Part shown: one piece after another, positions 3,370-8,266 of the stretch
How positions within the stretch are numbered: position 1 is the first letter of the stretch
How the letters are laid out: every line of letters starts with the position of its first letter
NCBI GenBank assembly: GCA_007280895.1
Contig: QYQN01000017.1
Span: forward strand, 1-45,660
Length of the DNA stretch: 45,660 bases
Origin: Methylococcaceae bacterium
Lineage (GTDB): Bacteria > Pseudomonadota > Gammaproteobacteria > Methylococcales > Methylomonadaceae
Direction: 5' to 3'
Position numbers and translations under genes: made by a program
Notes under the pieces: model-generated
The model's database searches: none
Seen by the model: only the letters and a program-made list of their open reading frames with translations
Told to the model about the DNA's origin: nothing

Positions 3370-4128
3370 ATGAGCGATTATTATGAGCAGTTACTGGTGT
3401 TTGGTGCGTCGTTAGTTGCCAATACATTTTCTGCCTTGGCAGGCGGCGGAGCGGGGTTGATTCAATTTCCTGTGTTAATTTTTTTAGGTCTGTCGTTTAG
3501 CGTGGCGTTAGCGACGCATAAAATTGCGTCGGTTGCGTTGGGCGTTGGGGCATCGGTTCGGTATTTAAAAGAAGATGTGTTGGAGCGACGCTTTGCTTTT
3601 TTTATGGCTGCGGTGGGTATTCCAGCAGTAATTTTAGGTTCATTTACTGTTGTCCATATTCCAGATGCCTTGGCAAAAGCTATATTGGGTGTATTGACTA
3701 TTGCTTTGGGCGTGCATTCTTTAGTTAATAAACAGTTGGGCAAGCAATATCAACCTATACACCGTGAATTAAGTGGCTTGGTTAAAGGGGGTATTGTGTT
3801 GTTTGTGGTTGGTTTTTTAAATGGTTCGATCGCTTCAGGTACGGGTTTATTTGCTACGCTGGTGTTGATAGCTTGGTTTGGTATGGATTACAAACGTGCC
3901 GTGGCTTATACCTTGGTGATTGTTGGTTTATTTTGGAATGGCTCAGGTGCGTTCGTGTTGGCAATGATTGCAACGGTTAAATGGAGTTGGCTGCCAGTGT
4001 TGTTATTGGGCTCGTTTGTGGGAGGCTATCTTGGCGCACACTTGGCTATTTTAAAAGGCAATCAATGGATTAAACGCAGTTATGAGGTGATGACCATTGC
4101 TGTGGGAATAAAATTGTTATGTTTTTAA
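3370..4128 (+). CDS. TauE/SafE (UPF0721) family membrane permease
   Basis: A 252-residue integral membrane protein, the usual length for the TauE/SafE family, with about eight hydrophobic segments in two similar halves. The N-terminal half carries ALAGGGAGLIQFPVL and the second half FLNGSIASGTGLFATLV, the two glycine-rich repeats of the family. Family members export or import sulfite, sulfoacetate and other small sulfur or organic anions, but the substrate cannot be read from sequence. It starts 6 bp after the cupin stop and so probably belongs to the same transcript as res and the cupin. Its stop faces the STAS gene on the other strand 12 bp away, and no clear terminator hairpin is visible between them. 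Confidence 0.88.
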   Translation: MSDYYEQLLVFGASLVANTFSALAGGGAGLIQFPVLIFLGLSFSVALATHKIASVALGVGASVRYLKEDVLERRFAFFMAAVGIPAVILGSFTVVHIPDALAKAILGVLTIALGVHSLVNKQLGKQYQPIHRELSGLVKGGIVLFVVGFLNGSIASGTGLFATLVLIAWFGMDYKRAVAYTLVIVGLFWNGSGAFVLAMIATVKWSWLPVLLLGSFVGGYLGAHLAILKGNQWIKRSYEVMTIAVGIKLLCF

Positions 4129-4140
4129 CTGGCTATGTTT

Positions 4141-6165
4141 TTAAGAGGTTTTGTGCGCATTAAAGCGTGTATAAAGTTGAGTAAGCTGTGCGCATTCTTC
4201 GTGCGAGGGTTTGCTCCAGCCACTAAAACCTAGTTCTGCAAGGGCTTGTCTGCCTTGGCTGTTGAGCCCCATATTTAATAACACATCGTGTAATGCCGTG
4301 TTGAGGTGCATACTTTGCGGTGCCGTGAGAAACATGGGGTAAGCGCATTGAGTGTCACTTTGTCCGAGTATGCGCAGACTTTTTTTGCTTAGCGAGGAGA
4401 GGCTTTGATAAGTTTGGCTGAGCATAAACAGTATATCTGCTTTGCCCTTAAGCAGTAATTGCAGGGCTTTGATGTCATGACCAGTCAACACATAGTTTAG
4501 GGTGTTTGCGTTGCAGGGGTGTTCTTCCAGTATAACGCGTCCTTGTAAATAAACTGTGGTGTTTGCAGAGGTGGTGGCACAGGTGCTGTGCTGAAAGTCT
4601 TCTAGGGTTTGGCGTGTATCATCAGCTCTGATGAGTACGGTTACTTCTTCAAATTGGTTGAGCGGACGTTGGCAGGGTTGAAAGTGATGCGTGAGTTGTA
4701 ATTGGGCGGCAACAAATGGATTGGTATAGACAATGTCCATGGTTTCAATGGCTTTAGGGTGCTCAGTCGCGGTGCCGTGTATGAGTTCTAAATTAAAGGT
4801 TCTGCCTAAGTGTTGTTGTAAATACGTTGAAAAAAACTGCCAAGCTTGGATGTGTTGGCTTCTTTGCGCATTAATCCATACGTTTAGTTTTTCTGAATTA
4901 AGTGCGGCTATAGGGGGCGTGAGCGTATGCTGTGGAGCCGAATAGCCCGTTGTGGGTGCCGCAGTTTGGGCGCGGTGCTGCGGTGTGGGGGCGGTGGGGG
5001 CGGCCTCGATGTTATTGGCTAAAAAACGTGTTAAGCCCGTCATTTTAAACAAAATGCCAATCATCCGATTGGTGTTGATGATTTGAATTTGGATGTGTTG
5101 TTCTTGCCAGTATTCAAAGAGTTTAAGCAGTTGTGCAAGACCCATCGAGTTAACGCGTAAGACCTGAGCAAAATTTAGTTGTGCGGTGGTGTAGGGTGGG
5201 ACTGCCCATAAGCTTTGTAAACAGGGCAATGCGGTGGCATCGATAATACCTATTAACTCGAAATGGTGAGTATTAGGCTCTGTTTGGTGGACGGTTTTTA
5301 TTTGTAAGCCATGCTCTTGCGTTAGTTGATGTGCGGGTTGTGCTGATTGCGCAGCGTGCGCTGCTAAAGCAAGGTGATGTGCGGTATGGAGTGGCGGCAG
5401 CGTTGGCGTTTGGATGACGTAGTGGGGGACTTTATCTGCTGTGCTGGTGGGGGTAAAGGCGGGAGTTTGGGCGGTGGTGGCTAGCGTTGTCGAGTTGGTC
5501 GCGGCGGCGTCACTTATAAAACGGGTTAAGCCTGTCATTTTAAAAAGCACAGAAATCATGCGATTAAGATGGCTTACTTGGATGCTGATCTGTTGTTTTT
5601 GCCAGTGTTCAAAGAGTTGTAGCAGTTGCGCTAAACCCATTGAATTAATGCGTTCTACATTGGAAAAATCTAATTCAATGTGGCGTTGTTTGGCTATTTG
5701 GTAAAGTGGCAAGAAGGTTTCTGCAGCACTGGCGTCAATGTTGCCAATTAATTGGATGCATTGTGATGACGCTTGACGATCTTGAGGGAAAACAAGTTGC
5801 AGCATTGCCGTGGCGTTGGGTGTTGTTGGCTGGGCAGTTGAGGCGTTTGGACAGTCTTGATTAAGTAAATGTGTTAAGCCTGTTTGGTTGAACATTAAGC
5901 CAATGGTTTGATTTGCTGAGGTGATACGAACGGTGATGTTATTTTTTTGCAAGTGTTCAATTAGTTTGAGTAATTCAGCTAAACCGATGGAGTTCATGCT
6001 GTTGACTTGCGAAAAATTTAATTCTGTCGTGGTATTTGAGGGCAATGTGTATAAATTTCTTAACGCAGGTTGGCTATCAGAATCAATGTTGCCAATGAGC
6101 GTAAACAGTTGAGCATAAGGCTCATTGATGGTGTTCTGTTGAATAGTTAATTTTGCATTATGCAT
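4141..6165 (-). CDS. Triple STAS-domain protein with C-terminal PhnD-like solute-binding domain
   Basis: 674 residues. Three STAS-like repeats (about 1-100, 120-220, 285-385), each with the core LxFxxVxxxNSxGLAxLL and a closing TGLT motif, are joined by Ala/Thr/Pro/Gln-rich linkers. The position equal to the phosphorylated serine of SpoIIAA/RsbV is kept in all three (about Ser59, Ser175, Ser340), but the preceding Asp is Asn and the next Ser is Ile or Met. Residues about 425-670 resemble a PhnD/phosphonate-type periplasmic binding fold (DIVYTNPFVAAQL, GKADILFMLSQTY, LNMGLNSQGRQALAELGFSGW). There is no signal peptide or membrane segment, so the binding domain should be cytoplasmic. The start overlaps the stop of the SpoIIE phosphatase gene by 8 bp with GAGGT about 7 bp upstream. 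Expected role: phospho-switch antagonist plus ligand sensor. The fusion is unusual and its target is unknown. Confidence 0.82.
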   Translation of the reverse strand: MHNAKLTIQQNTINEPYAQLFTLIGNIDSDSQPALRNLYTLPSNTTTELNFSQVNSMNSIGLAELLKLIEHLQKNNITVRITSANQTIGLMFNQTGLTHLLNQDCPNASTAQPTTPNATAMLQLVFPQDRQASSQCIQLIGNIDASAAETFLPLYQIAKQRHIELDFSNVERINSMGLAQLLQLFEHWQKQQISIQVSHLNRMISVLFKMTGLTRFISDAAATNSTTLATTAQTPAFTPTSTADKVPHYVIQTPTLPPLHTAHHLALAAHAAQSAQPAHQLTQEHGLQIKTVHQTEPNTHHFELIGIIDATALPCLQSLWAVPPYTTAQLNFAQVLRVNSMGLAQLLKLFEYWQEQHIQIQIINTNRMIGILFKMTGLTRFLANNIEAAPTAPTPQHRAQTAAPTTGYSAPQHTLTPPIAALNSEKLNVWINAQRSQHIQAWQFFSTYLQQHLGRTFNLELIHGTATEHPKAIETMDIVYTNPFVAAQLQLTHHFQPCQRPLNQFEEVTVLIRADDTRQTLEDFQHSTCATTSANTTVYLQGRVILEEHPCNANTLNYVLTGHDIKALQLLLKGKADILFMLSQTYQSLSSLSKKSLRILGQSDTQCAYPMFLTAPQSMHLNTALHDVLLNMGLNSQGRQALAELGFSGWSKPSHEECAQLTQLYTRFNAHKTS

Positions 6166-8266
6166 TATCTAGCACCTCGTAAAATTCATTGTGGTAGAGA
6201 AATTGAAAGCTTTTATCGTTATTTGGTTCAAAGGGCGTGTTGAAGTCTATAAATGCACAGACTTGGGTTTGTTGATGTGGAAAAACGCGTATTTGTAAAT
6301 AATCTGACATGCGCCAAATTAAGTATAAGCCACCTCCGCCTACGCCCGCTTCTAAGCCTTGCCCTTGAATATGCAGACTGAGACGAGTTAAAAATATTTT
6401 TGGCGTTAAGGTGCCCCAGTTGTCGATTAAGGAAATACCAAGTAGTCCGTTTTGCAGTGATAAATCAAGTGTTAAGAGTTCATCGTCAGCTAATTCACGG
6501 GGCTGTCCTTTTGGGTATAAGGCACGACCTTTGCCATCACGCGGTGCAGCACAAACGCCATTTTCAATGAGTTCGTCAAGTAAAAAGATAACGGTATCAA
6601 TGCGTTCAGGGTAGGGCAGTGTTTGTTCTTCTAGCCATGCTTGAATTTCATTGAGAATAAAGAATTTATCTTCTGTGTGCGTGAGTTGAAATTCGCGGCG
6701 TTGATCTGGGTAGCGTAGTAATGAGACTAAGTCGTCGCGCTGTGGCGTGAGGTGTTGATTGCGTAAAGTGGTGATGTCTAGGTGCTGATGCACTGGGTGC
6801 GAGGGCATTAAGACGCGGCGAATACCTTGTTGAGCCAAGCTAGGAATCAATTCAGAAAAATCGTGTTCAGCAAGCAGGATGATGACTTGACGTTGAATGT
6901 CGGCGGAAATAATGGGCTGTGTGTCGCGAAAATAACTGTCAGTAAAGACCGTAAGCTTACTGCTGTCTGAGCTAGTTTTGGATTGTTCGGTATTGCTTAG
7001 TGTTAATTGTGGGCTGCGTTCCAGAGTGCGTTCTAGGTGTTCTACACTAAACAGCGTGACATCATCATAAAATACGGCACGCCCCAAAAATTGCGTGAGC
7101 AGGTGTAGCAAGTCTGTGTTGAGGCTGTGAATGTCGTTGTCGCATAGATCAATCAATGCGGCTTCTAAGCGATCATAGCCAAAACATTCGCCGTCAGCAT
7201 TTTCTTCTTCAACAATGCTGTCTGTGTACAGAAATAAGCGGTCGCCCATATCAATTTCAGTGCTGGCGTGCTCGTATTGGGTGTGTTCATTTTTACCTAA
7301 GGGTAAGCCGCCTAATTCTAAGCTGTCTAGTTGGCTGAGTATGGCGCGATAGATATATGCAAATTGATGGCCCGCATTGGCATAGTGTAATGCACCCGTT
7401 TGGGTGTCAATACAGACCGCAAACATAGTCATTAGCAACGATTGGTGTGCTGTTTTAAAAATAATTTGATTCAGTCTGGCAAGAATAAGGTGCGGTGCTT
7501 TTTCTTGTTCAGATTCTAAAAAATTAACGCCTGCTTTTGCCGCACAGACAATTGTTCCTGCTGCGATACCATGACCACTGACATCACCGACTAAGATGAT
7601 GACCCAACGCGCGTCAACAACATAATAATCGTAAAAATCTCCGCCTACTTCGCTAGAGGTTATCATGGTAGCTTGACCTTGTAAGCCTGGTAATTCAATG
7701 CATGCTGGGCGTAATAAGTTTTTTTGTAAGGTTGCTGCGTTTTCTACTTCATCGTTTAAGCGAGCACTTAATTTCACCATGGCTTCTATTAGTGTGCCTT
7801 GTGCTTGCGACATGCTAAGAATTAAATCTGCAATTTTTACTAGACCTAAGAGCTCGTGTTGATCGATAACTGGGATGGCTTCATGTGTAAAGCCTGGGTC
7901 GATGGTTAAAAATTTAACAATAACTTGGTCAATGCGATCATTTGCTTCAACGATTAAGGGCGCTATAAATATATGTCCATGACTGGTCAGTAAAAAAGAC
8001 AGTTTTTTTCGTGCAAATAACTCACGTGCAAAGGCACGAGTCATGAGATTTAGGTAATTTTTTCTGGAAATTACGCCAAAATAGCGATTGTGTGCGTCTA
8101 AAATGGGTAAAGCAGAGAGTGTGGCTTGATCTTGAAACAGGTGCAATACATCTAAAATGTAAGTGTCTATGGAGATGGGCTTAACTTGATAGGTTAAATT
8201 GCGTACGCAAGGTTCGGAAAAGTTTTCTACGTTACTTTGCTGTAAGGCTGTTTCTTGTTCAAACAT
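6158..8266 (-). CDS. CBS-like / SpoIIE (PP2C) phosphatase / HATPase signalling protein
   Basis: 702 residues, no signal peptide or membrane segment. Residues about 20-155 look like a CBS pair (ALPILDAHNRYFGVISRKN and AIPVIDQHELLGLVKIADL). About 180-410 is a SpoIIE/PP2C phosphatase with all acidic metal motifs: SEVGGDFYDY, GDVSGHG, NAGH, LFLYTDSIVEEENADGE and DDVTLF. About 545-680 is an RsbW/SpoIIAB-like HATPase: N-box LDELIENG (about 563-570), a degenerate G1 (DNWGTLTP) and a glycine-rich G2 (GVGGGGLYLIWRMSD). The 415-545 stretch between them is unassigned. Phosphatase and kinase-like modules in one chain, co-transcribed with a STAS protein, imply a partner-switching circuit setting STAS phosphorylation. 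Whether the HATPase is an active kinase is uncertain because of the altered G1 box. Confidence 0.88.
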   Translation of the reverse strand: MFEQETALQQSNVENFSEPCVRNLTYQVKPISIDTYILDVLHLFQDQATLSALPILDAHNRYFGVISRKNYLNLMTRAFARELFARKKLSFLLTSHGHIFIAPLIVEANDRIDQVIVKFLTIDPGFTHEAIPVIDQHELLGLVKIADLILSMSQAQGTLIEAMVKLSARLNDEVENAATLQKNLLRPACIELPGLQGQATMITSSEVGGDFYDYYVVDARWVIILVGDVSGHGIAAGTIVCAAKAGVNFLESEQEKAPHLILARLNQIIFKTAHQSLLMTMFAVCIDTQTGALHYANAGHQFAYIYRAILSQLDSLELGGLPLGKNEHTQYEHASTEIDMGDRLFLYTDSIVEEENADGECFGYDRLEAALIDLCDNDIHSLNTDLLHLLTQFLGRAVFYDDVTLFSVEHLERTLERSPQLTLSNTEQSKTSSDSSKLTVFTDSYFRDTQPIISADIQRQVIILLAEHDFSELIPSLAQQGIRRVLMPSHPVHQHLDITTLRNQHLTPQRDDLVSLLRYPDQRREFQLTHTEDKFFILNEIQAWLEEQTLPYPERIDTVIFLLDELIENGVCAAPRDGKGRALYPKGQPRELADDELLTLDLSLQNGLLGISLIDNWGTLTPKIFLTRLSLHIQGQGLEAGVGGGGLYLIWRMSDYLQIRVFPHQQTQVCAFIDFNTPFEPNNDKSFQFLYHNEFYEVLDNA

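Follow-up and report, generated by a model that had tools for sequence, protein, structure and literature searches.

A conserved STAS–PhnD fusion encoded beside a SpoIIE–HATPase gene in Methylococcales, and its possible coupling to a small GTPase/roadblock cluster

Partner switching is best known as a means of controlling sigma factors. In the Bacillus circuits SpoIIAA/SpoIIAB/SpoIIE and RsbV/RsbW/RsbU the kinase and the antagonist are separate, single-domain proteins, and the SiaA/SiaB/SiaC system consists of a SpoIIE-type phosphatase, a kinase and a phosphoprotein. HsbA and CrsA are STAS proteins without further domains, and the input of CrsR is a receiver domain. According to the excerpted text of PMC6482189, HsbR of Pseudomonas aeruginosa combines receiver, PP2C and kinase/anti-sigma domains in a single chain, CrsR of Shewanella oneidensis has phosphatase and kinase/anti-sigma domains in one chain, the two act on the phosphorylatable anti-sigma factor antagonists HsbA and CrsA, and a later partner-switch target is the diguanylate cyclase HsbD. 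Here we analyze a 45,660-nucleotide stretch of DNA from a Methylococcaceae bacterium (contig QYQN01000017.1; the whole stretch is hereafter the window), in which two minus-strand open reading frames (ORFs) overlap by 8 bp, exactly where a first-pass annotation made from the letters alone had placed them. Gene 1 encodes a CBS pair, a SpoIIE (PP2C) phosphatase and an HATPase-like kinase domain, and gene 2 encodes three STAS domains followed by a C-terminal PhnD-like domain (Table 1). The sequence comparisons show that such gene pairs form a conserved family, with a fusion previously undescribed in the literature that we found. With a probability of roughly 0.55, we read the operon as a partner switch coupled through its PhnD domain to a GTPase module, a coupling that is probably broken in the lineage of the window.

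The cassette resembles the single-chain kind of partner switch. In gene 1, as in HsbR and CrsR, a PP2C phosphatase and a kinase-like domain stand in one chain; the first-pass annotation had taken this for a departure from known circuits, a view already overtaken by the excerpted description of those two proteins (PMC6482189). Unlike HsbR, which has a receiver input, the window protein begins with a CBS pair, and long forms in relatives with a transmembrane-PAS region. The second protein has one to three STAS domains fused to PhnD, unlike HsbA and CrsA, for which the excerpted text mentions no PhnD domain (PMC6482189). A STAS fold, an HATPase-like kinase and a SpoIIE phosphatase are shared with the Bacillus circuits, and the STAS part of the gene 2 model is closest to RsbV in the RsbV/RsbW complex (6m36), but no sigma factor gene directly adjoins the operon among the window ORFs of at least 80 aa, out to 14 kb. 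The operon departs from SiaA/SiaB/SiaC in joining the kinase-like domain to the phosphatase and in having a STAS protein in place of SiaC as partner. In the open-access literature we found no paper on STAS with a PhnD or phosphonate-binding domain, nothing on STAS partner switching fused to a periplasmic binding protein and, by title and abstract, tandem or multiple STAS domains only in sulfate transporters or SLC26 proteins. The terms ‘fused’, ‘tandem’ and ‘multi-domain’ are absent from a review of STAS-only proteins (PMC8256260). Within this literature, the earlier impression that the triple-STAS–PhnD architecture belongs to no described system has held.

Searches of 61 relatives' genomes gave matches in 43, many through the PhnD part alone; the four named relatives are two Methylovulum metagenome-assembled genomes (MAGs), one Methylococcaceae MAG and one Methylococcales MAG, and by these kin we take the window genome to belong to Methylococcales. 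The family was compared across 61 loci, comprising the window and 60 fetched relatives picked for having a STAS(1–3)–PhnD fusion. The SpoIIE–HATPase gene lies directly upstream of the fusion, on the same strand, at 60 of these 61 loci, which bears out the proposal of a partner-switching operon. The stretch at L044, the sole exception, begins right at a contig edge; at L056 the upstream gene is represented by a 95-aa end only. The intergenic gap runs from -179 to +62 bp, with overlaps that vary with the choice of ORF start. Fusions have one STAS domain at 42 loci, two at 12 and three at 7, so the triple arrangement, put forward earlier as a defining feature, is one state of a 1-2-3 series. Two operon types occur, their assignment at L042, L044, L050 and L056 having been set by hand where the first gene is cut or absent. 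One (26 loci) has a CBS–SpoIIE–HATPase protein of about 700 aa and one to three STAS domains; the other (35 loci) has a long form of about 900 aa and a single STAS domain. In complete long forms a hydropathy scan (19 residues, mean > 1.6) typically picks out two hydrophobic segments. Among the 35 long forms, the four that were scanned (L072, L060, L058 and L068) all contain PAS; one of them also has a match to the PilJ N-terminal domain.

Catalytic and acceptor motifs are kept throughout the family. The Asn-Ser pair, whose serine is the predicted acceptor by analogy with the phospho-Ser position of SpoIIAA and RsbV, occurs in all 88 STAS domains, and NSxGL in 87 of them. The SpoIIE motifs GGDxYD, GDxxGHG and DDxT are present in 56, 58 and 56 of 59 domains, counting contig-edge fragments, and the N-box DExxEN and DxWGT in 59 of 60 sequences; a contig edge truncates the remaining gene. 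No extra gene common to most loci was found as a third operon member or sigma target. Neighbors common to at most 12 of 41 loci look like housekeeping genes, which by sequence features we take to be LpxD, MoaC, MoaE and GlnS-like. At L044 (L044:104-1637), STAS and STAS–PhnD stand in separate frames (147 aa and 359 aa), which suggests a split or frameshifted double-STAS fusion, or an assembly error.

In a sample of the order (201 genomes, 48 genera), the fusion profile (E 1e-60) matched 40 genomes, two of them partially (G348 and G471); in an even sample of the class, the window genome aside, the full fusion occurred in 1 of 275 (G225). A quick tree of 74 rows places 60 fusions in one clade (Shimodaira–Hasegawa-like approximate likelihood ratio test, SH-aLRT, 98) and 10 PhnD proteins of the cluster described below in another (SH-aLRT 99), and is consistent with a single origin of the fusion; the program warned of long branches that join near both nodes. 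Fusion L050, with a PhnD truncated by the contig end, was omitted from the tree. A second, very divergent PhnD of L139 was kept on its long branch and excluded from the position count.

The nearest free-standing PhnD proteins, about 248 aa long, have the motif W..(F)NT.LQ in common with the fusion, and hhalign of the two families gave a probability of 100 (E 2.9e-50). None of 14 such proteins has a strongly hydrophobic N-terminal stretch (best 15-residue mean 0.83). The free-standing PhnD gene closes a cluster, F1–F2–small GTPase–F4–roadblock–PAS–PhnD, seen in genomes of the window's class at L139-L146, L148 and L072 (e.g. L148:2857-7679). Members absent or unrecognized are F5 in L139 and both F2 and F5 in L143. 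The GTPase matches ATP_bind_1 and Ras and the roadblock protein Robl_LC7; F1, F2 and F4 gave no Pfam match above cut-off. The small GTPase with Robl_LC7 recalls Ras-like GTPase/roadblock modules such as MglA/MglB and the Streptomyces conservons, unlike which this cluster adds PAS, PhnD and the three proteins F1, F2 and F4. No description of it was found in the open-access literature among the matches listed, and the terms ‘PAS’ and ‘phosphonate’ are absent from the main text of a survey of prokaryotic Ras proteins (PMC4316618). The first-pass suggestion of a scavenged domain is partly apt, although its source was probably no periplasmic transporter, because the free-standing kin already lack a signal-like segment and close a GTPase/roadblock cluster. 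A second PhnD type without a signal-like segment, 277-292 aa long with a C-terminal extension, was seen at L137, L138 and L147, adjoining a 128-134 aa gene, F11. Its other neighbors are, by sequence, presumably ThiF-like and TatD-like genes.

At four of the 61 loci the fusion operon lies inside or beside cluster genes. In L072 it separates F4 from the roadblock gene, and PAS and PhnD are retained; in L065/L159 it precedes F1–F2–GTPase–F4–roadblock; in L067 it adjoins F1–F2–GTPase; and in L123 a roadblock gene comes immediately before it. Across the order sample, with the fusion and marker scans taken as covering the same genomes and cluster presence scored by one gene, 38 of the 40 fusion genomes carry the roadblock marker, as do 58 of the 161 others (Fisher 1.8e-12; counts uncorrected for shared ancestry beyond the genus level). 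Leaving out the two partial matches gives 36 of 38, and counting by genus gives 18 of 18 with the fusion versus 14 of 30 others. The sample of relatives, which overlaps the order sample, gave 26 of 28 fusion genomes versus 14 of 33 others; these genome and genus counts were tallied by hand from listings. G225, a fusion genome outside the order, also has the marker. The cluster lacks its PAS and PhnD genes in L159 (G038) and L155 (G037), where roadblock is the last member, and in these two genomes the free-standing PhnD profile finds no match other than the fusion. The fusion may therefore stand in for free-standing PhnD there, with the caveat that one could have been missed because the assemblies are incomplete (G037 87%, G038 91%). 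Among the 61 relatives, a free-standing match is lacking in 4 of 26 genomes with both marker and fusion and in 0 of 14 with the marker only, a hand-tallied difference that is not significant (Fisher 0.28).

Only two fusion genomes have no roadblock marker, the window's own genome G000 and, in the same lineage, G004; F1 was looked for in both and likewise not found. G008 and G017, of the same genus as the window, have neither marker nor fusion. The mean distance of the window sequence to 16 relatives, divided by the relatives' mutual distance, is 2.99 for PhnD and 1.52, 1.24, 1.74 and 1.49 for the CBS, SpoIIE, HATPase and last STAS domains. The window PhnD is 50.8% identical to its relatives, versus 75.1% among the relatives themselves, and 18 of 59 family-conserved positions (those shared by 90% or more of 58 other fusions) have changed. 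Between G000 and G004 the ratio of nonsynonymous substitution (dN) in PhnD to that in HATPase is 2.56, versus 0.56-1.10 in eight other pairs, some with loci in common. A base-composition artefact was considered as the sole cause and rejected: third-position G is low (0.08-0.18) in G000 and G004 in every domain that the two genes encode (13 loci), and a bias common to all domains does not by itself explain a change in PhnD. Marker loss together with PhnD acceleration supports the idea that the GTPase module constrains PhnD, a support short of proof because G000 and G004 share one evolutionary event. The same two observations would also fit a PhnD domain that is a decaying passenger in the window, with the CBS–SpoIIE–HATPase and STAS parts left as a sigma-factor switch of the HsbRA/CrsRA kind. 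We regard this as improbable, since the PhnD dN/dS of 0.165 (dS, synonymous substitution; G000 versus G004) and the intact reading frame indicate continuing purifying selection.

In the reading that we favor, the CBS pair of gene 1 would sense a cytosolic signal, by which gene 1 would control how far the gene 2 protein is phosphorylated. From its motifs, the HATPase domain is predicted to phosphorylate Ser59, Ser175 and Ser340, one per STAS domain, and the SpoIIE domain to remove these phosphates. PhnD would then be an effector or recognition domain and no phosphonate sensor; the comparative genomics suggests that STAS phosphorylation gates its engagement with the GTPase/roadblock module, and in relatives the fused PhnD probably works beside or instead of the cluster's terminal PhnD. 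In the window's lineage the GTPase cluster is apparently gone, PhnD would have diverged under relaxed but not absent constraint, and the switch would run without its ancestral partner, possibly with a changed output. A more specific proposal, to which we give slightly less than an even chance, is that STAS–PhnD is a phosphorylation-gated stand-in for the module's own PhnD, through which a Ser/Thr switch controls a small GTPase, and that after loss of the module PhnD is being repurposed in the window. If PhnD does couple the switch to a GTPase under roadblock control, it would bring together two forms of bacterial signaling that tend to be studied separately, and the signal-peptide-less PhnD family would gain a testable role.

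Several points weigh against the coupling of PhnD to the GTPase module, beginning with the single-gene scoring, the uncorrected ancestry, the incomplete assemblies and the single event in G000 and G004 already given. No confident cluster gene lies within the fetched stretch at 57 of the 61 loci, counting among these L058, which has a weak F2-like match only (3e-12), and in G028 and G009 the roadblock marker is present without the surrounding cluster. Between G000 and G004, dN of PhnD (0.079) is not above that of STAS (0.098), and their ratio of 0.80 falls inside the 0.41-1.07 of the other pairs. Since the long-sensor paralogue is likewise missing from the window's lineage, the relaxed constraint could have another cause. 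No sigma or anti-sigma target of the switch was identified, and the PhnD part of the gene 2 AlphaFold model mostly has a predicted local distance difference test (pLDDT) score below 50.

The binding-protein fold of that part thus stands on sequence profiles. PF12974 (Phosphonate-bd) matches residues 434-656 of gene 2 (E 2.6e-25, 89.7 bits against a cut-off of 27), and the hydropathy scan shows no signal-like or hydrophobic segment in the window fusion, upholding the first-pass description of a PhnD-like C-terminus without a signal peptide. Across the family such segments were found in 4 of 61 fusion proteins, all within STAS regions. A profile search of the PDB with the free-standing PhnD alignment returned PtxB, PhnD, ArrX and AioX; with the fusion alignment it returned STAS matches only and no binding-protein entry. 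The fusion shares its profile with periplasmic PF12974 proteins (PtxB 5o2j, PhnD 5jvb, ArrX and AioX), and differs from them in having no signal-like segment, in its fusion to STAS and in an anion loop that is not conserved. In PtxB a Ser-Thr-Ser loop, printed as AStsSHLIP, holds the anion. By a correspondence traced by eye through two alignments, this loop is replaced in the fusions, with Phe at one place in 58 of 58 others, where the window, reading Asn-Thr-Thr, has Thr; free-standing PhnD of the cluster has an acidic loop.

Given this lack of conservation in the anion loop, phosphonate sensing was dropped as a leading idea, and a role of PhnD as a phosphonate sensor is unlikely; the phosphonate/phosphate-type cytosolic sensor of the first-pass annotation loses ground accordingly. 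That PhnD senses cytosolic phosphonate, phosphite or phosphate and adjusts the switch is, in our estimate, very improbable: the family name, the PtxB and PhnD matches of the free-standing kin and a window loop nearer to Ser-Thr-Ser than the Phe-bearing loops speak for it, whereas the loops of the other fusions and of cluster PhnD speak against it, as does the finding of no second PF12974 protein in the window genome, and hence of no importer of that family. The label ‘phosphonate-binding’ may mislead for proteins of this PhnD clade. A cytosolic small-molecule sensor with a non-phosphonate ligand, comparable to the effector domain of LysR regulators, is a tentative alternative that we consider unlikely, in which the link to the GTPase cluster would reflect a ligand read by both systems. 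It draws on the PF12974 score, on the 41 of 59 conserved positions kept even in the diverged window copy and on the binding proteins among solved relatives of the free-standing form. The lost canonical loop counts against oxyanions only, and at the low model confidence a ligand pocket and a protein interface are indistinguishable.

In the window copy the CBS pair appears to be a more obvious input sensor than PhnD. The first-pass annotation had gene 1 as a phosphatase plus a kinase-like HATPase, in line with the SpoIIE match and, for the HATPase, with its motifs, and had overlooked this N-terminal pair (E 2e-8). The best 50 Foldseek matches listed for the gene 1 model are CBS proteins, several with AMP, ADP or ATP, so that the pair is probably an adenine-nucleotide input domain, the ligand class being that of the matches. 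Foldseek on this second model was informative for the CBS pair only. In the gene 2 model the STAS domains are RsbV-like, with pLDDT of about 70-85 and RsbV (6m36) as the top match. Both models were built from alignments of 5 sequences each and have mean pLDDT of 51.9 and 44.9. The SpoIIE Pfam match spans residues 222-409, with phosphatase motifs GGDFYD, GDVSGHG, TDSIVE and DDVT, and three STAS stretches in gene 2 match PF01740 (E 3e-22), confirming the triple STAS. The HATPase-like domain has the N-box DELIEN (564-569), DNWGT (615-619) and GVGGGGLY (641-648). The Pfam scan of gene 1 gave no match at this C-terminus. Among nine family proteins including the window's, HATPase_c_2 was above cut-off in L117 (28.4 bits), sub-threshold in L072, L060 and L068, and unreported in L058, L034, L037 and L051.

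Table 1. Predicted features of the two-gene operon, in window coordinates
Feature	Residues	Coordinates	Strand	Basis
Gene 1: CBS pair–SpoIIE (PP2C) phosphatase–HATPase-like kinase, 702 aa		6158..8266	-	ORF, Pfam, motifs
CBS pair	16-160	7787..8221	-	Pfam CBS E 1.8e-8, two stretches; Foldseek on model
SpoIIE/PP2C phosphatase	171-415	7022..7756	-	Pfam PF07228 E 1.2e-34, motifs, conservation
HATPase-like kinase domain (boundary hand-set)	521-702	6161..6706	-	Motifs; HATPase_c_2 in some relatives
Gene 2: STAS x3–PhnD (PF12974) fusion, 674 aa		4141..6165	-	ORF, Pfam
STAS domain 1, predicted acceptor Ser59 (codon 5989-5991)	14-107	5845..6126	-	Sequence
STAS domain 2, predicted acceptor Ser175 (codon 5641-5643)	130-223	5497..5778	-	Sequence
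STAS domain 3, predicted acceptor Ser340 (codon 5146-5148)	295-387	5005..5283	-	Sequence
PhnD-like domain, type 2 periplasmic-binding-protein family by profile, probably cytosolic	426-670	4156..4890	-	PF12974; hhalign

A scan of the window for regulatory signals gave 3 promoter-like sites, versus 9.2 in shuffles, and 6 terminator-like sites, versus 5.5. The strongest GC skew in the window (0.306) lies at positions 4001-6000, over the STAS–PhnD gene, and the coding strand is G-poor at third codon positions in every domain of both genes.

Other putative partner-switch genes occur elsewhere in the window's genome, G000. Contig C61 (L152:5969-8248) encodes a CBS–SpoIIE phosphatase followed by DUF6272 and SiaC genes, the DUF6272 protein being presumably SiaB-like; this set is possibly a second CBS-controlled partner switch, its CBS match lying just below cut-off. 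Contig C64 (L150:7296-8068) carries a separate STAS and ATPase pair, which by sequence we take to be RsbV-like and RsbW-like, just upstream of a 1104-aa gene that we assume to resemble NAD-type glutamate dehydrogenase.

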